Source of the DNA: Bacteroidales bacterium | Lineage (GTDB): Bacteria > Bacteroidota > Bacteroidia > Bacteroidales > UBA932 | DNA length: 64,000 bases | Assembly (NCBI GenBank): GCA_017557535.1 | Contig: JAFYYM010000138.1 | Location: 59,019 to 123,018 of the forward strand | Reading direction: 5' to 3' | Shown here: positions 7,588-62,060 of the stretch, in pieces | How positions within the stretch are numbered: position 1 is the stretch's first letter | How the letters are laid out: each line of letters opens with the position of its first letter | Notes under the pieces: generated by a model | The model's input: only the letters and a program-made list of their open reading frames with translations | What the model was told of the DNA's origin: nothing | The model's database searches: none | Translations under genes and position numbers: made by a program

Positions 7588-8343
7588 CTACTTCGCTTCG
7601 TAAACCCTCACGTAGTCGACCTCCATGTAGGTGCCGTCTATGGCGTCTGTGACTTCTCCGGCCCAGGCGAGCACGGCCATGCTGAGCAGCAAATTGGCTG
7701 GAGAGAAGGAGAACTCGTTCTTGGAGCGCCTGATCTCCCTTCCGTCAAGGAAGAACACAAACTCCTCAGGAGTCCATTCAAGGCCGAGGATATGGAAATC
7801 TTGAGAAAAGTCTATGTCCTCGTATGTGAAGACCTTATGGAAAGACTGGTGAGGCTGATCGGTCCAATTGTGAATGTTCGTGTTGACCTCATGCGGGTAA
7901 TGTCCTTCGTTGATGTCAATCTCAAAACGTTTCCCTTCCGTGGGTGCGGGAGAATCCTGGAGAGTCATCAGCCAGAAAGAGTTGTTGGTGCCGGTAGCAT
8001 TGGCATATTTGTAACGGCATTCAAAAAAGCCGAACTTGAAGAGACGCTTCGTCCAGATGCTGCCGGAAGTCCAATCCTGGCCGCCACGGCTTTCCTTATG
8101 GTTCACAAGGCGGACAGTCCCGTCGCCGACTTCAACATTCTCAGGCCAGCGGCTGCAGAGTGTGTGAGTGGTGGGGCCATTTGCCGAATTCCAGTTCTGG
8201 AGCAACTGGTCACGGGTCTTATAGTCGAATTCATCGGCCCAAACAAGTTTGTACTTGCTCTCGTCCACAAATCCATACTCAGGCCTCTTTTGGCATGACA
8301 TAACGGCCATCGCCACAGTCAGGATGAAAAACAATCTCTTCAT
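7588..8343 (-). CDS. GH16 family glycoside hydrolase lipoprotein (copy A)
   Basis: 251 residues. A lipoprotein signal peptide ends at MSC17. The GH16 catalytic motif EIDINE is at 141-146 (nucleophile E141, assisting D143, acid/base E146), and the jelly-roll strands end in YMEVDYVRVYEAK. GH16 enzymes retain configuration and cut beta-1,3 or beta-1,4 linkages in glucans, galactans or keratan/poly-LacNAc chains. With a GH20 hexosaminidase in the same PUL, an endo-beta-galactosidase acting on a host-type or similar glycan is plausible but unproven. It starts one base after copy B ends, so the two are surely co-transcribed. Confidence 0.92.
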   Translation of the reverse strand: MKRLFFILTVAMAVMSCQKRPEYGFVDESKYKLVWADEFDYKTRDQLLQNWNSANGPTTHTLCSRWPENVEVGDGTVRLVNHKESRGGQDWTSGSIWTKRLFKFGFFECRYKYANATGTNNSFWLMTLQDSPAPTEGKRFEIDINEGHYPHEVNTNIHNWTDQPHQSFHKVFTYEDIDFSQDFHILGLEWTPEEFVFFLDGREIRRSKNEFSFSPANLLLSMAVLAWAGEVTDAIDGTYMEVDYVRVYEAK

Positions 8344-8344
8344 G

Positions 8345-9100
8345 TCACTTCGCTTCGTAAACCCTCACGTAGTCGACCTCCATGTAGGTGCCATCAATAG
8401 CGTCGGTGATTTCACCGGCCCACTTGATTATGGCCATGCTGAGAAACACGGGAGCGGGAGAGAATGAGAACTCGTTCTTGGAGCGCCTGATCTCCTTACC
8501 GTCAAGGAAGAACACAAACTCCTCAGGAGTCCATTCAAGACCGAGGATATGGAAGTCTTGAGAGAAGTCAATATCATCGTAAGTGAAGCCCTCATGGAAA
8601 GACTGATGAGGCTGATCTGTCAAATTATGGATAGTCGTGGTGACCTCGTGCGGATAATGTCCTTCGTTGATGTCTATCTCAAAACGCTTTCCCTCGACAG
8701 GATCGGGAGCATCTGGGCGACTCGTCAGCCAGAAAGAGTTGTTGGTACCGGTCGCGGCGGCATACTTGTAACGGCATTCAAAAAAGCCGTACTTGAAATC
8801 ACGCTTCGTTGAGATGCTGCCGGAAGTCCAATCCTGGCCTCCACGGCTTTCCTTATGATTCACGAGTTTGACAGTCCCGTCGCCGACTTCAACATTCTCA
8901 GGCCAACGGCTGCAGAGTGTGTGAGTGGTAGGACCATTCGCCGAGTCCCAGTTCTTCAGCAACTGGTCACGGGTCTGATAGTCGAATTCATCGGCCCAAA
9001 CAAGTTTGTACTTGCTCTCGTCAACGAATCCATACTCAGGCTTCCTGTGGCATGACATCACGGCCATCGCCACTGCCAGGATGATGAACAATTTCTTCAT
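8345..9100 (-). CDS. GH16 family glycoside hydrolase lipoprotein (copy B)
   Basis: 251 residues, the same length as copy A and about 86% identical by hand comparison (about 35 differences). It has a lipoprotein signal peptide to SC17 and the same EIDINE catalytic motif. The differences cluster around residues 97-103, 125-134, 153-159 and 216-225 rather than being even, which suggests that cleft loops have diverged, perhaps for a different side chain on the same backbone. It follows the SGNH-GH106 gene by 18 bases. Confidence 0.92.
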   Translation of the reverse strand: MKKLFIILAVAMAVMSCHRKPEYGFVDESKYKLVWADEFDYQTRDQLLKNWDSANGPTTHTLCSRWPENVEVGDGTVKLVNHKESRGGQDWTSGSISTKRDFKYGFFECRYKYAAATGTNNSFWLTSRPDAPDPVEGKRFEIDINEGHYPHEVTTTIHNLTDQPHQSFHEGFTYDDIDFSQDFHILGLEWTPEEFVFFLDGKEIRRSKNEFSFSPAPVFLSMAIIKWAGEITDAIDGTYMEVDYVRVYEAK

Positions 9101-25242: not shown

Positions 25243-25280
25243 GACGCTTTAGTAAAAATTAGTGATTAAAGAGATTAGAT

Positions 25281-25378
25281 GGTTATTGTTCTAATTCCTA
25301 TTTCATAAGCATTGTCAATTGCAAAGTTAGCAAAATATATAACAGATTGCGCAAAAAAGGTTTATTATGCGCAATCTG
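25281..25378 (-). promoter_or_regulatory. Promoter and inverted-repeat operator of the susC operon
   Basis: On the minus strand a -7 box TAACTTTG lies at 25322-25329. Upstream, perfect 11-bp inverted arms CAGATTGCGCA (25343-25353) and TGCGCAATCTG (25368-25378) with a 14-base spacer flank the expected -33 region (a T-rich TTTTTTG). The leader downstream (25281-25318) is nearly identical to that of the GH92 gene. A start near 25316 would give a leader of about 70 bases. Confidence 0.7.
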
Positions 25379-28596: not shown

Positions 28597-28613
28597 AGGA
28601 GGGGAAAATATGT

Positions 28614-28710
28614 GGTTATTATTCTAATTCCTATTTCATAAGCATTGTCAAACCCAAAGTTAGCAATATATATAACAAATCGCGCAAAAAGGTTTTTTAT
28701 GTGCGCATTC
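28614..28710 (-). promoter_or_regulatory. Promoter and operator of the GH92 gene (copy of the susC promoter)
   Basis: -7 box TAACTTTG on the minus strand at 28655-28662. The leader 28614-28651 matches 25281-25318 with about one mismatch in 38. Upstream, imperfect inverted half-sites ATCGCGCA (28679-28686) and TGCGCATTC (28702-28710) occupy the same position as the perfect arms at susC, with a spacer one base longer. A weaker version of the same operator is inferred. Confidence 0.65.
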
Positions 28711-34773: not shown

Positions 34774-35202
34774 ATGAAGATAGGAGTTGCCGGAGACCAT
34801 GCCGGCTATGAGTACAAGAACAGGCTCGCCGAGCTGTTGACAAAGAAAGGTCACGATGTCGCCGACTACGGTACTTACTCTGAGGTCAGCTGTGACTATC
34901 CTGACTATGCACATGCCCTGGCGGAGGCTGTCCAGAAGAAAGAGGTTGACCTGGGGATAGCCCTTTGCGGTACGGGCAACGGGATGGCCATCACCCTCAA
35001 CAAGCACAAGGGAGTCCGGGCCGGATTGGCCTGGAACAGCGAGGTCGGGCGGCTTGTGAAAGCCCACAACGACGCCAATGTGCTGGTCTTGCCCGCACGG
35101 TTCATCTCTTACCAAATGGCGACCCGCATCGTCAACACATGGCTCTCGACCCCAGTTGAGGAGGGGCGTCATCAGCGCAGGAGAGATAAAATCGACATTT
35201 AG
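34774..35202 (+). CDS. rpiB: Ribose-5-phosphate isomerase B
   Basis: 142 residues. GVAGDHAGYEYKNRL at the N terminus and CGTGNGMAITLNK, with the catalytic Cys, are diagnostic of RpiB/LacAB-type isomerases, followed by R-GL-WN as usual. It interconverts ribulose 5-phosphate and ribose 5-phosphate in the pentose phosphate pathway. Its TAG stop shares a base with the GTG start of truB. Confidence 0.95.
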   Translation: MKIGVAGDHAGYEYKNRLAELLTKKGHDVADYGTYSEVSCDYPDYAHALAEAVQKKEVDLGIALCGTGNGMAITLNKHKGVRAGLAWNSEVGRLVKAHNDANVLVLPARFISYQMATRIVNTWLSTPVEEGRHQRRRDKIDI

Positions 35203-36254
35203 TGGTTTTGGACACAAGCGCTTTTATCGCTGATGCCAGGATGGCAGGAATAGCCTTGTCGGGAAGCATTGATGACTACCCCGACGGGATAATCATTCCG
35301 GTCGACAAACCTTACAGATGGACTTCCGCCGATGTGGTCCGGAAGATCAAGTGGGCGGCTTGCAAGCATTTCGGCAAGAAGAACCTCAAAGTCGGACATG
35401 CCGGCACATTGGACCCGCTTGCGACAGGGGTCTTGCTCGTATGTGTCGGGAAAGCCTGCCGCCTGGCGGAGAATCTCCAGAAAGAAGAGAAGGAATATGT
35501 GGCCGGAATCTCATTCGGGGCCACAACTCCCTCATACGATTTGGAGAAGGCTGTAGACAAACTGTATCCTGTGGACAATGTCTCGGAGAAGACAGTGCGT
35601 GAATCGCTTCCCCGGTTCATCGGGGAGCAGGAGCAAGTGGCTCCTTTGTTCTCGGCAAAATCCGTGGATGGGGTGAGGGCATATGAGCTTGCACGGAAAC
35701 AGTTTAAGGATAAGGGATTAGCCAAGACTGATGTCATCGAGGGTTTCGACCATTCGGTCGCAGAGACTCTTCATGTCCAGAAGATAAACATTTACGACCT
35801 GGAACTTCTGGCTTTTGAGCCGGGAGGATTTTCGAGGGCCGGGGCACTGCTGAACCTGGGCCGCGTCCATCCTCGCTACGCTGCGGCTGAGTACGGCCCA
35901 GATTCAGCGGTGCCCCAGCCAAGCGACGATACCGACCAATGCGGCCCAGGTTCAGCAGTGCCCCAGCCAAGCGATGGAACTGTCGCCAAAGGCCCTGACG
36001 GGAGAATTAACGTAGCTGACACTTCGGGGCTGGACTTGCCCCTTGCGACTATCAGGATCGCCTGCTCCAAAGGCACTTATATCCGAGCCTTCGCCAGAGA
36101 CTTGGGCGAGGCTCTCTGCACCGGAGCCCACCTGAATTCACTCCGGAGGACAAAAACAGGCGGCTTCGATGCCGAAACCGCCTTGTCTGTATCGCAAGCT
36201 GTCAGCCTATTCCCTACAAGAAATCAAGAGAAACCCGACGGTCGAGATAATTGA
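35202..36254 (+). CDS. truB: tRNA pseudouridine-55 synthase with an in-frame repeat insertion
   Basis: 350 residues from a GTG that overlaps the rpiB stop by one base. GIIIPVDKPYRWTSADVVRKIK, KVGHAGTLDPLATGVLLV (catalytic Asp71) and IRIACSKGTYIRAFARDLGEAL place it firmly as TruB, which makes pseudouridine 55 in tRNA. It is about 100 residues longer than usual. Much of the excess is residues about 211-275, a Pro/Gly/Asp-rich stretch between core strands encoded by palindromic and tandem repeats (35841-35974), one segment of which also occurs in ftsK. The insertion should fall in a surface loop, so the enzyme is probably active. Its 3' end overlaps the convergent lipoprotein gene by 41 bases. 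Confidence 0.93.
   Translation: MVLDTSAFIADARMAGIALSGSIDDYPDGIIIPVDKPYRWTSADVVRKIKWAACKHFGKKNLKVGHAGTLDPLATGVLLVCVGKACRLAENLQKEEKEYVAGISFGATTPSYDLEKAVDKLYPVDNVSEKTVRESLPRFIGEQEQVAPLFSAKSVDGVRAYELARKQFKDKGLAKTDVIEGFDHSVAETLHVQKINIYDLELLAFEPGGFSRAGALLNLGRVHPRYAAAEYGPDSAVPQPSDDTDQCGPGSAVPQPSDGTVAKGPDGRINVADTSGLDLPLATIRIACSKGTYIRAFARDLGEALCTGAHLNSLRRTKTGGFDAETALSVSQAVSLFPTRNQEKPDGRDN
35841..35974 (+). repeat. Palindromic and tandem repeat element inside truB
   Basis: The 24 bases at 35841-35864 are the exact reverse complement of 35941-35964. The 33 bases at 35894-35926 recur at 35942-35974 with two mismatches, a period of 48 bp (16 codons). The 40 bases at 35859-35898, bounded by GGCC at each end, recur inverted in ftsK at 41317-41356 with two mismatches. 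The whole block is open in the truB frame. Confidence 0.92.
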
Positions 36255-36645
36255 CCCGGTCTCTTGAAACCTGGAGAACACCTTTCACTTTCTCAAAATG
36301 AGTTATGGCATCCTCGAGATTCTGGGGATCCGGAATCCTTATCGCTATGGCATTCCCGATCTTGTAGTCGTAAATGATTGACGCTCCGTATTTTCTTATA
36401 GCCTTCTTGAGAGGCTCCTTCCCTATCTCGATGTCATAGCTGATCACGAGGACATCCCTGGAATACTCCAATCCAGAATCCCTGGGTCTTATCGGAGCGG
36501 CTCCCGGGGCAGGAATATCCGGAGAATCAAAGGAGTCCACCCTGGCCAGCTGCTTCTCTGTCCGGCTCATGGTGCTGCAGCCCGCCAGAATAGCTATCAC
36601 CACTGGCAGGCATACGAGGAAACCGATGGGTCTATTAGTCATCAT
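36214..36645 (-). CDS. Small lipoprotein resembling a subtilase propeptide
   Basis: 143 residues. A lipoprotein signal ends at ILAGC22. After a Pro-rich linker, residues about 60-140 show DVLVISYDIEIGKEPLKKAI, NAIAIRIPDPQNLEDAI and KGVLQVSRDR, which look like the ferredoxin-like fold of subtilisin-type propeptides/inhibitor I9. No protease domain is fused or adjacent. It may be a stand-alone inhibitor or chaperone-like domain, but this rests on pattern resemblance only. It overlaps the end of truB on the opposite strand. Confidence 0.65.
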   Translation of the reverse strand: MMTNRPIGFLVCLPVVIAILAGCSTMSRTEKQLARVDSFDSPDIPAPGAAPIRPRDSGLEYSRDVLVISYDIEIGKEPLKKAIRKYGASIIYDYKIGNAIAIRIPDPQNLEDAITHFEKVKGVLQVSRDRVNYLDRRVSLDFL

Positions 36646-36662
36646 CTTACTTTAGAACCGTA

Positions 36663-37685
36663 TTATTTCCCTGCAAGTTTGAAGCCAGAAGATGCCCATT
36701 CGGTCATAATTCCTTCATCATCGTAGATAAGATATCCCTCCACATCGTCCTTTGAGTCTATGAATTCCTTCGCGGCATCCAACCCTATGACCATGCAATA
36801 TGTGGCGTAGGCGTCGGCTGTGGTCGCGTCGGGAGCCACAATAGTAGCGCTCAAGAGGTTATGGTTGACAGGATACCCCGTACGAGGGTCTATTGTATGT
36901 GAATACTTACGACCGTCTTTCTCATAGTACTTGCGGTAGTTACCGGAGGTGACCACACCACAGCCACTCCCGTCTCCTCGCCATATTCCGTCCAAGTCGG
37001 CGCCGGGGGTCATATTCCCGTCAAATGGCCTATCGATACCAATCGACCAAGGCAAGCCCTTCTGGTTCAAACCTTCGCAATATATTTCCCCGATATCCAC
37101 CAACATGTCTTTAACTCCGATGGAATGGAGGTACTCCGCTATCTTGTCGGATGTGTATCCCTGGGCGATAGCGTTGAAATTCAACTTGGGGCGTATTCCG
37201 GGTCGAAGAGGTTCCATGTCCTCCCCTATCGTGTCCATACCGCAGACGGCCAAAACACTGTCAACTGTTTCCGCGGAAGGGAGCTTGTCGGAAGTGAAAC
37301 CGAAGCCCCATATGTCGAAAAGAGGTGCCGCGGCCACATCCAAGGCTCCTCCTGTCTCGTCATAGAACTTCCTGGATAAAGCGAATATCTCCTTGAACAA
37401 GGCATTTGGCCTCACTGCGGCGCCAGCGTTTAAACGGCTCAACTGCGAGCCTTTGTTGTACCCGGAAAGGGTTGTGTCAATCAAAGTAAGGATGGAGTCC
37501 ACACAAGCCTGGATCTCCATTTGAGACGTTCTCACACCCTTGAGGTTGAATTTCACCGAATATGTCCCTCCCTGGGCGTAACCCGTGAGTTGGCAATATC
37601 CCTTATCCGGAGCGCATGACAGGCAGCAAAGCGAGAGCGTGATCAGCGCCGGAATGACGGAAAAAGTATTCAAAAACCGGTTCAT
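36663..37685 (-). CDS. apbE: FAD:protein FMN transferase (ApbE)
   Basis: About 340 residues from the ATG at 37685; the frame runs 6 codons further upstream. A lipoprotein signal ends at LSC. ApbE landmarks are GALDVAAAPLFDIWGFG, NFNAIAQGYTSDKIAEYL, VDIGEIYCEG and the catalytic region YSHTIDPRTGYPVNH with TTADAYAT. It attaches FMN covalently to Thr residues of Na+-pumping NADH dehydrogenase or Rnf subunits and other periplasmic flavoproteins. A link to the two secreted FAD oxidoreductases of the PUL is not supported, since ApbE transfers FMN. It lies 17 bases upstream of the small lipoprotein gene. Confidence 0.94.
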   Translation of the reverse strand: MNRFLNTFSVIPALITLSLCCLSCAPDKGYCQLTGYAQGGTYSVKFNLKGVRTSQMEIQACVDSILTLIDTTLSGYNKGSQLSRLNAGAAVRPNALFKEIFALSRKFYDETGGALDVAAAPLFDIWGFGFTSDKLPSAETVDSVLAVCGMDTIGEDMEPLRPGIRPKLNFNAIAQGYTSDKIAEYLHSIGVKDMLVDIGEIYCEGLNQKGLPWSIGIDRPFDGNMTPGADLDGIWRGDGSGCGVVTSGNYRKYYEKDGRKYSHTIDPRTGYPVNHNLLSATIVAPDATTADAYATYCMVIGLDAAKEFIDSKDDVEGYLIYDDEGIMTEWASSGFKLAGK

Positions 37686-37802
37686 TATTGCAATTATAAG
37701 CATTTACAGGAGAATTATCGGTGTACTTGGACTGGTTTTTGCTGAAAGACTACTGTTTTCGCGAATTTTATACGATATTTGCATGTTCAAGTCAAGACTC
37801 AT

Positions 37803-38792
37803 ATGAGATTTAAAAGCATATTACTCCTTTTGTCCGCGGCTTCAATCGCCATCCTTCCTTCTTGTCACAAAAAGGATGATGACACCGAGACTGACCCGTA
37901 CCTCGACGGAACTGTCTCGTTCTCCTTCCCCTCTTTCGTAAAGGTCGGGGAACAATTGACAGTCACGCCCAAAGGAGCCGTCAATCCAACCGGCGATGTC
38001 GGTTACTACTGGTACTCCACTTGGAACTCATCCAGAGACACTGTGAAAACTGAGAGTGGACCCGGGGATGGTTCTTGGACTATGACCGTTCCCCTTGAGA
38101 CAGGTGTTTACACTCTCACTGTGGGGGCCTTCGCCGCAAATTACTCAAGTATTTCCTCATATAAGAAATTCACTGTTGTGGATCCCTCCATTGAAGGTTC
38201 CTTGAAAGGCGCCGGTTACCAGACCGATTCAAGCCTGTTGGATCAAAGGGATAATGGGGTATATTACTTGACTACCGCCGGAGATAAGGTCTGGATGCAG
38301 AACAACCTTTATTATTCCGGTTCCGGAGTCTCTTATGAGAATAGCGTGGCGATGGACCCCATAGTCGGAAGGTTCTATACCTGGAACGAGGCTGTCTCGG
38401 CTTGTCCTGAGGGCTGGCGTCTCCCGACCGATAAGGAATTTGCGGCCATGACCGGAGCTTCTGGAGAAACACTCTCTGACGTTGCCGGATCATTGATGGC
38501 GGACGCCACTTTCAATGGCCAGAAGCTTTGGACTTTCTGGCCCGAAGTGAAGATCACCAATTCCGCGAAATTCTCCGCCATCCCGATAGGATATGCCATC
38601 GACCAGGAGGGATACATGAAGTTCATGGGGTCAAGCCAGTACGCGACATTCTGGACCTCGGACAACTCCGAAGACATAGCCCTATACCGCTACCTCTACG
38701 TCGCCAATAATGACATCTATCTCGGTTACGGAGACAAAGAGTCTTTCCGAGCCTCGGTACGTTGTGTGAAAGATGCGAAAAACGGGGAGTAG
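37803..38792 (+). CDS. FISUMP-domain surface lipoprotein
   Basis: 329 residues from the ATG at 37803. A lipoprotein signal ends at LPSC, followed by HKKDDD, an acidic run typical of surface-exported Bacteroidetes lipoproteins. Residues about 35-135 form an Ig-like/PKD-like domain (GVYTLTVGAFAAN). The C-terminal part (about 150-325) is a FISUMP (Fibrobacter succinogenes major paralogous) domain: GDKVWMQNNLYY, GRFYTWNEAVSACPEGWRLP, FWTSDNSEDIALYRYLYV and RASVRCVKD. The function of this domain is unknown; it is fibre-surface associated in rumen bacteria. It is convergent with the LolA-like gene 2 bases away. Confidence 0.88.
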   Translation: MRFKSILLLLSAASIAILPSCHKKDDDTETDPYLDGTVSFSFPSFVKVGEQLTVTPKGAVNPTGDVGYYWYSTWNSSRDTVKTESGPGDGSWTMTVPLETGVYTLTVGAFAANYSSISSYKKFTVVDPSIEGSLKGAGYQTDSSLLDQRDNGVYYLTTAGDKVWMQNNLYYSGSGVSYENSVAMDPIVGRFYTWNEAVSACPEGWRLPTDKEFAAMTGASGETLSDVAGSLMADATFNGQKLWTFWPEVKITNSAKFSAIPIGYAIDQEGYMKFMGSSQYATFWTSDNSEDIALYRYLYVANNDIYLGYGDKESFRASVRCVKDAKNGE

Positions 38793-38794
38793 GA

Positions 38795-39445
38795 CTATCT
38801 CAAGTCGGTAACGACATAAGAATCATCAAGGGTCTTTTCGTCAAAACGGAAAGACTCTTTCGTTTCCAGCCTGTCTGAGAACGTGAAGTCATTGATAATG
38901 AACTCGGAGACAGAGTCATCATTCAGCTTCACCTCCGCTCCAACGAGAACCGTGGTCCCGCTCTTGAAGAAAAGTTTGAGCTCTTTAATATCCATTGAGT
39001 ACTTCCCTTTGTTCACCGGAGAAAGGGTCGAGACATCAACGGTTTTCCCCTGGAACTTACCAGCCTCGAAAGACACTTCCTCAAAAGCGGAGTCGACAGA
39101 CGTGATCATGAGAGCCGGATTAGTTGCGTAGATGTCAGCGGATTCCTCAACTGTCTCCACCAAGGCCTCCTCGGCCACTCTGTCAACAGTCCATCTGAGA
39201 CTACCGTCACACCAGACCTCCAATCCGTTGCCGTTCAGGACAAAAGCGTTATCCTGCACACGGACATCACCAGCGCCGGTCATCTTGGCGCTTGATCTCG
39301 ATGTCCGCATCGTGAAGGAATATTCAAACGAGACAAGTGAGGATGACACCTTGTCGATGAAAGACGCCAGAGTCTTGCTTTTCGCTCCTGAAGGAGAGAC
39401 GAAAGCAAAGATTAGGGCAAACGCTATGATGATATTCTTTCTCAT
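38795..39445 (-). CDS. LolA-like periplasmic lipoprotein carrier
   Basis: About 216 residues with signal peptide MRKNIIIAFALIFAFVSPSGA. The mature part shows the LolA/LppX half-barrel pattern: FEYSFTMRTSRSSAKMTGAGDVRVQDNAFVL, GLEVWCDGSLRWTVDR and LKLFFKSGTTVLVGAEVKLNDDSVSEFIIND. It would ferry lipoproteins from the inner to the outer membrane. It follows ftsK by about 40 bases on the same strand, a common Bacteroidetes arrangement. Confidence 0.85.
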   Translation of the reverse strand: MRKNIIIAFALIFAFVSPSGAKSKTLASFIDKVSSSLVSFEYSFTMRTSRSSAKMTGAGDVRVQDNAFVLNGNGLEVWCDGSLRWTVDRVAEEALVETVEESADIYATNPALMITSVDSAFEEVSFEAGKFQGKTVDVSTLSPVNKGKYSMDIKELKLFFKSGTTVLVGAEVKLNDDSVSEFIINDFTFSDRLETKESFRFDEKTLDDSYVVTDLR

Positions 39446-39484
39446 GATAACCATGGGAATTGCAGAAGTTGTGCCAGAAAAAGA

Positions 39485-41989
39485 TTATTGGTTCCTGAAG
39501 GACTCCAGGACCTTCTCAAGCTCATCCAGACTGCCGATCAGAACCTCACGAGGTTTGGATCCGGACTGAGGGCCGACGACTCCGGCGGCCTCGAGCTGGT
39601 CCATGACCCTGCCAGCCTTGGCATATCCCATGCCTAGACGTCTCTGCAGGTCTGATGTGGATCCCCTCTGGTTGATCACAATCATCTTCGCCGCCTCCTC
39701 GAAGCGCTCGTCCAGATTCTTCATGTCCACCAGGCCTCCAGAGCCATCCTCTGTGGAATCCTCGACATCAGGGAGATAATACGGGGTGTTGAAGCTCTTC
39801 TTATAACCTTGCTGCTCACCGATGAACTCGGTCAGTTTGTTTATCTCATCGCTGTCAATAAGGGCACACTGGACTCTCTCCATCTCGACCCCGGCATAGT
39901 AGAGCATATCTCCCCTTCCGATAAGCTTCTCGGCGCCCGGAGAATCCAAGATGGTTGAAGAGTCAATCCTGGAGATAACCCTGAAGGCGATACGGGTGGG
40001 GAAATTGGCCTTGATGAGACCGGTGATCACATCTACAGAAGGCCTCTGGGTAGCCAAGACAATATGGATACCCGCCGCGCGGCCTTTCTGAGCCAGACGG
40101 ATAATCGACGTGGATATGCTGCGGGCCTGGGCCTTGGCGTCCCCGCCTCCTCCGACGGACATTGTCAAGTCGGCGTACTCATCGACAATCGTGACAATAT
40201 AGGGCAGGAACCTGTGACCGTCCGTAGGGAGAAGATGACGTTCCTTGAATTTCTCGTTATATTGCTTGATGTTAGGCACATAAGCCTTACTAAGCAATTC
40301 ATAGCGCTGCTCCATCTCGGCCACAAGAGCCTTCAGCACCTTCTCTGCCTTGTCCGGCTTCTTGACTATGGCATTCTCCAGCTCTTCCTTATCGTCGTTG
40401 GCAGGAAGGACGGCGAGGTAATGGTGCAGAAGACGTCCATAGTGGGAGAACTCGACCATCTTCGGGTCAATGAAGACAAACTTCAGCTCAGAAGGATGTT
40501 TGGAGTAGAGCAAGGATGCGACCATCGCATTCAGGCCAACAGACTTTCCCTGCTTTGTGGCACCAGCAACCAGCAGGTGCGGAGCATCGGCCAAGTCAAA
40601 GACCTTGACTTTCTGATGTATGGTATATCCTATCGCTATCGGGAGCTCCGCCTTGCTGTTCCTGAACAAGTCGTCGTTAAGGACTGCCCGCATAGGCACG
40701 ATCGACGGCTTGTCATTGGCGACCTCTATACCCACGGAGTCGGTCAGTGTCACGACACGGACTCCCCTGGCGTGGAGATACATGCCGATATCCTCCTGAA
40801 GCTTCTTGATCTCAGCGATCTTTACCCCGGGAGCCGGATAGACCTTGTAGAGAGTCACAGTCGGCCCCACAATAGCCTTGACATCATTGATCTGGATCCT
40901 GTAATTCTCCAGAGTCGCCCTGATCTTATTGTTGTTTCTTGTGAGTTCTTCCTCGGAGACCTCGTGACGTCCGGTCGCATATTCCTCAAGAAGCTCAAGA
41001 GAGGGGAACTCGTACCTAGGCAGCTCATCACGTACATTGATCGGTTCGAGCTCCTTGGTGATCTCTGTAGAGAGTTCCTCGCCCTTGATAATCTCAAGTG
41101 TATTGTCTTGTTTGACTGGATCCTTCGAATCTTTGCTCTCCGTCCCGGGGGCAGACGGCAGCTCAGATGCCTCGCTTCGCTCGGCCCCACCGCTCGCGTC
41201 GCCTCGCGACGCTCCGGTCCCCCCTCTTACCGTGCCGAGGGTGGCAGGATCTGAGCCTGCCGTCTTCCCCGGGACGGGATTAACGATCGGGGCGGGCCGG
41301 ACAGCCGCCGGGCTTAGGCCGTACTCAGCCGCAGCGGAGCGAGAATGGACGCGGCCGGGCTCGGACGGCTGCCCGGACACATCAGTAGCCAGAGAGGGAT
41401 CTGTGACAGGCTCAGATGCTCCCAGGGAGTCCAGCCATAGGCGGAACTTGTCGCTGGCGAAGAATAGCCACAAAGCTAAGAGCAGCAGAAGGAGCACGAC
41501 CGTTATGACCGGACCGAAAAGATTACGGGACCAACTGACGACAGACTCGCCACACTCGCCTCCAAGCCCACCGCCGAAGACATTTCCCCATCCCGCGAGA
41601 TCAGAAATGAATGAGAGGAGGAAGGAGGCCACAAGCGCCCCGGAGATAGTGAGCAATATGGTCCTGGTCATCGAGTAATGCCACCTGCCGAGAAGCAGGC
41701 GGACAGAGACGGCGAACATGATTAGAATCAACGCAAGACTCCCGAGCCCGAACCACTCACGCACGAGCAAGTTGGCCCATTTGTAGCCAAGTTTACCAGC
41801 GATATTGCTGATCTCCACTGATTTATCTGACACAGGGGCGGCAAGGGCGCTCTGATCCACCTTCCATGTAAACACATAAGAGATGGTTGCCAGGAGGGTG
41901 AAAACAGTGAGAATGGCGACAAGCAGACCGGCTCCTTTAACCAGTCTCTCCTTGTCGTCATCATCCATCGTCTTCCAGAGCCTGCGCAT
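39485..41989 (-). CDS. ftsK: DNA translocase FtsK/SpoIIIE with repeat-derived linker segments
   Basis: 834 residues. Four membrane segments occupy about 20-180, then a disordered linker (about 185-300), alpha and beta motor domains and a C-terminal winged-helix gamma domain (RRLGMGYAKAGRVMDQLEAAGVVGP). Walker A reads AGATKQGKSVGLN, with Lys where Gly is usual at the fifth position; Walker B is IVTIVDEYADL. It pumps DNA toward dif during division and helps XerCD resolution. The linker contains two segments encoded by palindromic repeats: residues about 211-224 (shared with truB) and about 244-278 (core shared with the 61943-62060 palindrome). It lies 2 bases after the DUF4290 gene. Confidence 0.96.
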   Translation of the reverse strand: MRRLWKTMDDDDKERLVKGAGLLVAILTVFTLLATISYVFTWKVDQSALAAPVSDKSVEISNIAGKLGYKWANLLVREWFGLGSLALILIMFAVSVRLLLGRWHYSMTRTILLTISGALVASFLLSFISDLAGWGNVFGGGLGGECGESVVSWSRNLFGPVITVVLLLLLLALWLFFASDKFRLWLDSLGASEPVTDPSLATDVSGQPSEPGRVHSRSAAAEYGLSPAAVRPAPIVNPVPGKTAGSDPATLGTVRGGTGASRGDASGGAERSEASELPSAPGTESKDSKDPVKQDNTLEIIKGEELSTEITKELEPINVRDELPRYEFPSLELLEEYATGRHEVSEEELTRNNNKIRATLENYRIQINDVKAIVGPTVTLYKVYPAPGVKIAEIKKLQEDIGMYLHARGVRVVTLTDSVGIEVANDKPSIVPMRAVLNDDLFRNSKAELPIAIGYTIHQKVKVFDLADAPHLLVAGATKQGKSVGLNAMVASLLYSKHPSELKFVFIDPKMVEFSHYGRLLHHYLAVLPANDDKEELENAIVKKPDKAEKVLKALVAEMEQRYELLSKAYVPNIKQYNEKFKERHLLPTDGHRFLPYIVTIVDEYADLTMSVGGGGDAKAQARSISTSIIRLAQKGRAAGIHIVLATQRPSVDVITGLIKANFPTRIAFRVISRIDSSTILDSPGAEKLIGRGDMLYYAGVEMERVQCALIDSDEINKLTEFIGEQQGYKKSFNTPYYLPDVEDSTEDGSGGLVDMKNLDERFEEAAKMIVINQRGSTSDLQRRLGMGYAKAGRVMDQLEAAGVVGPQSGSKPREVLIGSLDELEKVLESFRNQ
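41157..41261 (-). repeat. Palindromic repeat inside the ftsK linker, related to 61943-62060
   Basis: Outer arms at 41157-41171 and 41243-41261 are inverted copies with a small bulge (both contain CTCAGAT). On the coding strand the inside reads GCCACCCTCGGC, TAAGAGGG, then an internal hairpin around GCGTCGCGAGGCGACGC, then GGGGCCG and CGAAGCG. The same ordered blocks occur in the intergenic palindrome near 62 kb. The segment is translated as Gly/Ser/Ala/Arg-rich linker. Confidence 0.8.
41317..41356. repeat. 40-bp repeat shared between ftsK and truB
   Basis: The plus strand here starts GGCCGTACTCAGCCGCAGCG and ends GGACGCGGCC. It is the reverse complement of 35859-35898 in truB with two mismatches. 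In the coding sense both copies are read in the same frame, giving GRVH-R-AAAEYG in each protein. Confidence 0.92.
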
Positions 41990-61942: not shown

Positions 61943-62060
61943 AATCAAAGGTATTCCCTCCAGAACCCGTAGCCACCCTCGGCTCGTAAGAGGGAGGGGC
62001 CCATCGCTGCAGTGATGGGAGGGGCCGCGAAGCGGAGGTTCTGGAGGGAAACCTTTGATT
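61943..62060 (-). repeat. 118-bp intergenic palindromic repeat element
   Basis: Arms 61943-61967 and 62037-62060 are perfect inverted repeats over 24 bases, with a single bulged A at 61953. Inside are CCCTC-GAGGG (about 61976-61995) and CCCATC-GATGGG hairpins. The inner blocks GCCACCCTCGGC, TAAGAGGG, GGGGCCG and CGAAGCG are shared in order with the ftsK insert. It begins at the rnz stop codon, so it may also act as an rnz transcript 3' hairpin. Confidence 0.85.

Follow-up and report, generated by a model that had tools for sequence, protein, structure and literature searches.

An 83-nt hairpin element dispersed through genes of Bacteroidales, with variable but paired arms and frequent inversion at orthologous sites

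Introduction

The palindromic elements of Rickettsia and Wolbachia (Rickettsia palindromic elements, RPEs) are short, lie in frame in many unrelated genes and occupy solvent-exposed parts of the encoded proteins; orthologues share their insertion sites, and several families occur per genome (PMC10969869, PMC3767692, PMC2229807). The RPE-bearing guanylate kinase of Rickettsia is made and active, its intragenic palindrome being translated (PMC2229807), and RPE-1 sits in truB of R. conorii (PMC3733652). Here we examine a window of 64,000 nucleotides from a Bacteroidales bacterium (GenBank assembly GCA_017557535.1, contig JAFYYM010000138.1, positions 59,019 to 123,018 of the forward strand), in which an earlier note had described near-identical palindromic segments of 40 bp in the unrelated genes truB and ftsK and had likened them to RPEs. 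The likeness holds: the segments belong to a dispersed palindromic element, 83 nt long, that is kept in frame in unrelated genes.

Repetitive extragenic palindromes (REPs) that lie wholly inside the open reading frames (ORFs) of conserved genes are known in several phyla, and truB hosts such intragenic REPs in S. maltophilia, E. lithoralis and S. alaskensis (PMC3733652); set beside the window, this means that truB is hit by intragenic palindromes in unrelated bacteria. The same paper reports CGTC-type REPs from Bacteroidetes and some REPs inside longer palindromes. Translated intragenic palindromes in Rickettsia and intragenic REPs in several other bacteria are already known (PMC2229807, PMC3733652), so that Rickettsiales are not nearly the sole precedent. 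A paper on repeats of Porphyromonas gingivalis concerns intergenic miniature inverted-repeat transposable elements (MITEs) (PMC5771137), and among the titles and abstract openings of the top search results we saw no account of intragenic palindromes in Bacteroidales that invert and whose arms covary. What this family adds to a known kind are arms that drift yet remain paired, and frequent inversion in place, perhaps through template switching during replication.

The truB and ftsK segments are two of many copies

The two 40-mers (Table 1) are identical at 38 of 40 bases, both carry GGCC at each end, and none of 100 shuffles of the window gave such a match; they encode the peptides GRVHPRYAAAEYG in truB and GRVHSRSAAAEYG in ftsK. 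They are not the only copies, since in the genome of the window (3.38 Mb in 139 contigs) the 40-mer occurs 17 times and a 24-nt core 23 times, each at up to 3 mismatches, with 0 hits for a reversed control. Chance similarity and plain conservation of residues were ruled out by the shuffles, the genomic copies and the TruB alignment described below. A scan of GTDB found at least 108 stretches with the core, and all 80 of the 108 that were inspected come from Bacteroidales or Bacteroidia records, many of them from ruminant samples going by record titles. Within the genus the core was found in 6 of 61 sampled members (own genome included; several of the 61 are incomplete metagenome-assembled genomes, MAGs), and in a sample of 393 members of the order, which held only two other genus members, it was found in the own genome alone. 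All 24 of 24 record handles matched the core, but these had been picked for carrying the element and some represent the same genome twice.

The element is dispersed at many unrelated sites, mostly within genes. An identical 83-nt sequence lies in dnaG of one genome (L067) and in metG of another (L064), both genes being named by eye. A set of 294 near-identical pairs with unrelated flanks was not used as a count, as the ungapped flank test had admitted orthologous flipped pairs; of these only L064/L067, with their different hosts, is relied on.

A near-invariant core lies between arms that vary but stay paired

Each 40-mer had been described as the palindrome itself. Alone it is weakly self-complementary (20/40 positions in truB, 18/40 in ftsK), and it could be ruled out as the complete element because the flanking arms pair: 21-22 nt on each side pair together, so that the 40-mer is the core of a hairpin of 83 nt. 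Folded as DNA, the truB hairpin is far stronger than shuffled sequences, with z -5.0 for its + strand and -5.8 for its - strand.

For the anatomy we assembled 137 copies, 23 from the own genome and 114 from the matches listed in the GTDB scan (2 of 116 scan matches were dropped for too little flank), of which 96 remained after removal of copies at least 85% alike. An alignment of 91 copies omits five of these with shifted, chimeric or unclear arms (L035, L058, L109, L075 and L098), and arm pairing was counted in 89 copies (96 minus 7). Stacked without gaps, the 96 copies show the 40-nt core between two arms. The core is near-invariant, GTCCATYCTCGCTNCGCTGCGGCTGAGTA, and closed by a GGCCG:CGGCC-type stem, from which the common layout continues outward as a 2x3 internal loop, 6 bp, a 5' bulge, 6 bp, a 3' bulge and 6 bp; the bulges are one base each, at positions fixed relative to core orientation. 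Watson-Crick pairing falls from 64/89 copies at -21/+61 to 31/89 at -22/+62, which gives the length of 83 nt. Both ends carry CCGG in 71 of 137 copies, the length is the same in 68 of those 71, and the end of sequence conservation in the 71 agrees with this boundary. No match was found in Rfam at gathering scores in six loci.

The mean identity between copies is 53% for the 5' arms and 96% for the inner core. The arms are nearly free in sequence yet paired within each copy: out of 18 positions, a copy's own arms make 14.0 Watson-Crick pairs (3 in the lowest copy), and arms swapped between copies make 9.3 (n = 89 copies). In the 91-copy alignment 84.0% of cells are paired against 65.3% after shuffling, 373 cells are changed on both sides against 125.9, and covariation is 0.437 against 0.140, with 0 of 500 shuffles as high in each case; the best slid version reached a covariation of 0.154. 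Two-sided change is seen at 21 of 23 pairs, which 5 of 500 shuffles also reach.

A core that stays constant while arms differ between sites would also be seen if only the core were mobile and the arms were palindromic target sequences, as for some REPs, and REP dimers within longer palindromes are on record (PMC3733652). We consider this quite improbable, because the arm bulges keep fixed places relative to core orientation, the whole 83 nt are identical at two unrelated sites, and the KsgA loops of two relatives without the element (G089 and G154) show no palindrome by eye.

The element is kept open in five reading frames

In 111 of the 137 copies an ORF of coding character passes through the element; the other 26 gave none. 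With S denoting the strand that encodes the GRVH peptide, the frames of the 111 are S0 in 54, A1 in 28, A0 in 18, A2 in 6, S2 in 5 and S1 in 0, so that five of the six frames are in use. Frame use was scored three times, each time under other rules. In a test based on the flanks only, run on the second set of 137 copies introduced below for inversion, 6 copies were too short and 36 had a flank of no confident frame; among the 95 scored, 79 were read in one frame without a stop, 0 in one frame with a stop, 6 looked frame-shifted and 10 had flanks on opposite strands. Where the coding flanks lie on the same strand, the frame is therefore kept in 79 of 85 copies, and none of the 79 has a stop in the element. 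The scoring that was strictest on score accepted 39 of 137 copies (S0 17, A0 8, A1 7, A2 4, S2 3).

The earlier note had both copies inserted in the same frame and orientation, and neither carries over to the family. A single fixed frame is ruled out by the five in use: among the 79 confident intragenic copies the GRVH frame serves in 40, against 22.1 expected were all open frames equal, and the other 39 are spread over four frames. A fixed orientation fails as well, the element being often inverted at the same site in relatives.

In the own genome the hosts include TruB and FtsK (by Pfam) and, by eye, KsgA (two copies), AtpG (two copies), MetG, DnaG, PriA, IspE, TldD and glycoside hydrolases. 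Its presence in such enzymes and the retention of the frame make translation as part of the host protein most likely, as judged from sequence. If so, TruB, KsgA or AtpG would contain the insert peptides GRVHPRFAAAEYG, GRTQPQRSENG or RPYSAAAEREW. A hairpin within housekeeping genes might alternatively be taken out of the RNA or passed over by the ribosome, as in translational bypassing, so that the proteins never contain the insert, and bypassed palindromes are described from Magnusiomyces mitochondria (PMC6649704). We give this hardly any credence: keeping the frame, and keeping all 79 of the 79 same-frame copies stop-free, would be needless were the stretch skipped.

The surplus of the GRVH frame and the conserved inner core would also suit a peptide or DNA motif selected as a functional module (an interaction tag, a protein-binding site or an mRNA regulator) and not a selfish insert. 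Such a role is very unlikely for an element that uses five reading frames and both orientations, even within one gene, that sits in unrelated hosts and whose core did not turn up in 55 of the 61 genus members sampled (several being incomplete MAGs).

Relatives carry the element, lack it or retain a remnant

In an alignment of 20 of 38 TruB loci, read by eye, the element occupies a variable loop in 6 of the 20 orthologues (own included) and is absent in 14. The expectation that relatives would lack exactly the 40-mer residues was thus borne out in part, as 14 of the 19 aligned relatives lack the element and the unit of insertion is 83 nt. The five best-scoring TruB relatives share the insertion site, and in three of these the core points the other way. 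For FtsK, 7 of 15 loci were used in the comparison, the remaining 8 having yielded no ORF that showed the motifs applied. An AlphaFold2 model of TruB (mean predicted local distance difference test score, pLDDT, 75.5) places residues 210-264 below 50 between two strands, so that in the model the insert stretch is a low-confidence loop. The KsgA model (pLDDT 38) was not used, and the placement in KsgA and AtpG comes from alignments, in which the element is present, absent or a remnant among relatives. The occurrence of both proteins with and without the element, together with the TruB loop, would fit a tolerated loop insert.

A short palindrome, apparently left by internal deletion, lies in frame in KsgA of one relative (G158). 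At a site where L101 and L051 bear the full element, the own genome (L037, about 660-690) shows an imperfect palindrome of 18 nt, ACCGGCCGACCGTCCGGT; this is apparently a deletion scar formed from the two element ends. In a nucleotide-level comparison for exact empty sites the relatives were deletion derivatives or too diverged, and the insertion length, 83 nt and one further nt for the frame, is therefore inferred.

As a separate observation, the KsgA loop carries other inserts, with peptides such as VILSEAKNL, LHPQGGLRGVPLR and TATLGTLRGGTGAERSEA, in the relatives L234, L237, L238, L242, L243 and L233, so that several elements seem to have landed in this one loop.

Orthologous sites carry the element in both orientations

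For inversion we rebuilt a second set of 137 distinct copies from all loci collected, deduplicated, which fall into 68 sites. Among the 28 sites seen in more than one genome, 14 show both orientations between genomes. Orthologous pairs, which are not independent of one another, comprise 80 in the same orientation and 53 flipped (117 and 102 in an earlier count that included duplicate records). In 42 of the 53 flipped pairs the arms match better when turned together with the core, in 9 when left unturned, and 2 pairs are ties. The element is thus usually inverted as a whole. Three pairs show this with nearly the same arms, reverse-complemented between homologous flanks: L122/L144 (flanks 93-96% identical), L070/L105 (91-94%) and L054/L127 (88-90%), in all of which flank homology extends to 0-3 nt from the element. 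Misassembly is not a likely explanation in general, since flips recur across many records and the imperfect repeats that form the arms do not reach the length of a read.

The apparent flips could instead be independent insertions or replacements at hot spots, without inversion in place. The ftsK linker of L055/L136, where flanks are 95-97% identical and the arms unrelated, looks like one copy replaced by another, and the KsgA loop hosts other inserts. This explanation is rather unlikely in general, given the three pairs whose arms are nearly identical once reverse-complemented, with flank homology running up to the element. Separately, at L055/L136 the sequence on one side of the element also differs.

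Both orientations at half of the shared sites, and arms that flip with the core, are likewise what a dedicated site-specific recombinase would produce, the elements then being miniature switches whose inversion changes a protein loop; Bacteroidales commonly have invertible DNA. We find this improbable, as the outer arms have no fixed sequence beyond the CCGG ends of 71 of 137 copies and the conserved part is the centre; with 5' arms only about half identical on average, the inverted repeats lack a conserved site for a recombinase. For synapsis, a distance of about 40 bp would also be very short.

A proposed reading by template switching and the evidence around it

We lean, with modest confidence, towards a single reading in which the truB and ftsK segments are copies of a non-autonomous 83-nt hairpin element that spreads, is translated, flips by template switching and decays. 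From the dispersal we infer that an enzyme supplied in trans spreads the element; it would recognise the folded strand, not fixed terminal sequences, and insertions that keep the frame would persist where a loop tolerates them. Once the element is in place, a polymerase that switches template at the hairpin would recopy one arm from the other, so that the arms drift yet stay paired, and would also invert the segment between the outer arm ends. With age, copies would lose internal sequence and shrink to short palindromic scars. Homogenised arms and inverted spacers are both described as products of template switching between inverted repeats (PMC8604942, PMC8794818).

Several observations weigh against this reading. 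The ftsK hairpin is only moderately better than shuffles (DNA fold z -1.9 and -1.8), and at laxer margins two copies (L074 and L119) combine agreeing flank frames with a stop within the element or close to it. The genus members revealed no mobilising enzyme, a Y1_Tnp match being present in 6 of 6 that bear the element and in 40 of 55 that do not. No clear target-site duplication emerged from 125 settings, in which the largest excess beyond the paired ends was 18 against 12.0 permuted, at 2 nt. The spacers inverted by template switching in yeast measure 2-5 bp (PMC8604942); here most of the 83 nt would need recopying, with breakpoints at the outer ends. The unrelated arms of L055/L136 count on the same side, as do the mismatches of the GRVH strand, among which A.C outnumbers G.T, an excess that is unexpected under simple template switching.

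That excess amounts to 92 A.C against 41 G.T (23 pairs, n = 89 copies), and by host to 31/14 for sense, 29/19 for antisense and 47/18 for copies of no confident frame. By coarse site group (35 groups, of which 30 were used, coarser than the 68 inversion sites) it is 17 to 5 (p 0.017), or 16 to 5 without the most unequal pair (p 0.027). It was noticed and reported on the same data, and is post hoc and modest. The strand opposite to GRVH folds more stably as RNA in 28 of the 35 groups. Together these hint that the opposite strand folds in some step.

More tentatively, and on the doubtful side, the copies could represent a new class of mobile element in which the shape of one folded strand, and not the terminal sequence, is recognised, the layout of loop and bulges being fixed and the arms free, and which flips within housekeeping proteins. 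In that event two alternative loop peptides would alternate over short evolutionary times, and the surplus of A.C mismatches on the GRVH strand would mark its opposite as the strand that folds during movement.

Apart from these readings, we observed a weak Y1_Tnp match within about 4 kb of ksgA at G000:C95:90791, G089:C24:13367 and G071:C41:17083, possibly a conserved neighbour.

Comparison with described repeats

With RPEs the element has in common that it is a short palindromic repeat found in many unrelated genes, in frame and without stops. RPEs measure 100-150 nt, whereas the present element measures 83 nt and belongs to another clade; its arms keep pairing by compensatory change, whereas RPEs are said to lose repeat identity with time (PMC6649704). 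Inversion at orthologous sites is frequent here and finds no mention for RPEs in passages of PMC10969869, PMC3767692 and PMC2229807. The best reading would be that the element works like RPEs. We do not claim membership, because the length differs, the arms behave differently and the comparison is with descriptions of RPEs.

REPs (the GTAG and CGTC superfamilies, associated with RAYT, REP-associated tyrosine transposases) are likewise short hairpins in many copies, some of them intragenic. REPs lie mostly between genes and combine a stem of 5-13 bp with a GTAG or CGTC tag (PMC3733652), whereas an ORF runs through most of our copies and the arms are much longer than REP stems and nearly free in sequence. 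Core positions 5-8 read CGTC in 42 and AGTC in 43 of the 96 dereplicated copies, and GTAG or its complement occurs anywhere in the element in 10 of 96. A stem of 8-9 bp in the isolated core was absent from the three copies folded. As to a RAYT, the Y1_Tnp matches, present in genomes with and without the element, single out no Y1 transposase. On account of the near-equal CGTC and AGTC counts and the missing stem, we leave REP membership undecided.

As in MITEs, the element has terminal inverted repeats, which here make up the whole arms. Integron attC sites are alike in combining variable arms with a conserved fold and bulges; unlike the present element, they conserve outer core sites and not the centre. 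Short inverted repeats shaped by template switching in yeast share the pattern of homogenised arms and inverted spacers within coding genes, with arms of 10-16 bp and spacers of 2-5 bp (PMC8604942), whereas here a single dispersed family is concerned and most of the 83 nt is involved.

Since this lineage has relatives with the element, without it, with it inverted or with a scar, insertion, paired-arm drift, inversion and decay can be traced stepwise. If the reading is right, a palindrome can stay symmetric while it turns over within a housekeeping enzyme; the way in which this happens, and the amount of foreign loop that such an enzyme can accommodate, become testable.

The two copies and other repeats in the window

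The features of both copies are collected in Table 1. The ftsK element lies between the 4TM and alpha domains, starting at about residue 212. In truB a partial tandem duplication of 48 nt, spanning 35867-35962, places a second 3' arm beside the element.

Table 1. Features of the truB and ftsK copies, in window positions
Feature	Positions	Strand	Basis
truB host gene (tRNA pseudouridine synthase B, 350 aa)	35202..36254	+	ORF; Pfam TruB_N, TruB_C_2
Whole 83-nt hairpin element in truB, core oriented to read GRVHPRYAAAEYG	35838..35920	+	Drop in arm pairing; end of conservation in 71 copies; DNA fold
40-nt conserved core, truB copy	35859..35898	+	Match to ftsK copy and genome copies
5' arm, truB element	35838..35858	+	Pairs with 35899-35920
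3' arm, truB element	35899..35920	+	Pairs with 35838-35858
Partial tandem copy, 48 nt, with second 3'-arm sequence	35915..35962	+	71% to 35867-35914; direct and inverted repeat
ftsK host gene (834 aa)	39485..41989	-	ORF; Pfam FtsK_4TM, FtsK_alpha, FtsK_SpoIIIE, FtsK_gamma
Whole 83-nt hairpin element in ftsK, GRVHSRSAAAEYG on coding strand	41295..41377	-	Frame and arm pairing; DNA fold
40-nt conserved core, ftsK copy	41317..41356	-	Match to truB copy and genome copies

A second palindrome family of like design occurs at 41157-41266 (-) in ftsK and at about 61947-62056 between genes. Its members have a partly common core (CCACCCTCGGC..GTAAGAGGG..) and arms that are unlike between the two places and paired within each; they fold with DNA z values of -2.7 and -6.6 and were also seen as an inverted repeat in the window. 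One further repeat pattern checked in the window gave no result. Two direct repeats complete the picture: one of 300 nt at 7590-7889 and 8347-8646 (87% identity, 757 nt apart), and an A+T-rich one of 93 nt at 25271-25363 and 28604-28696 (86% identity).

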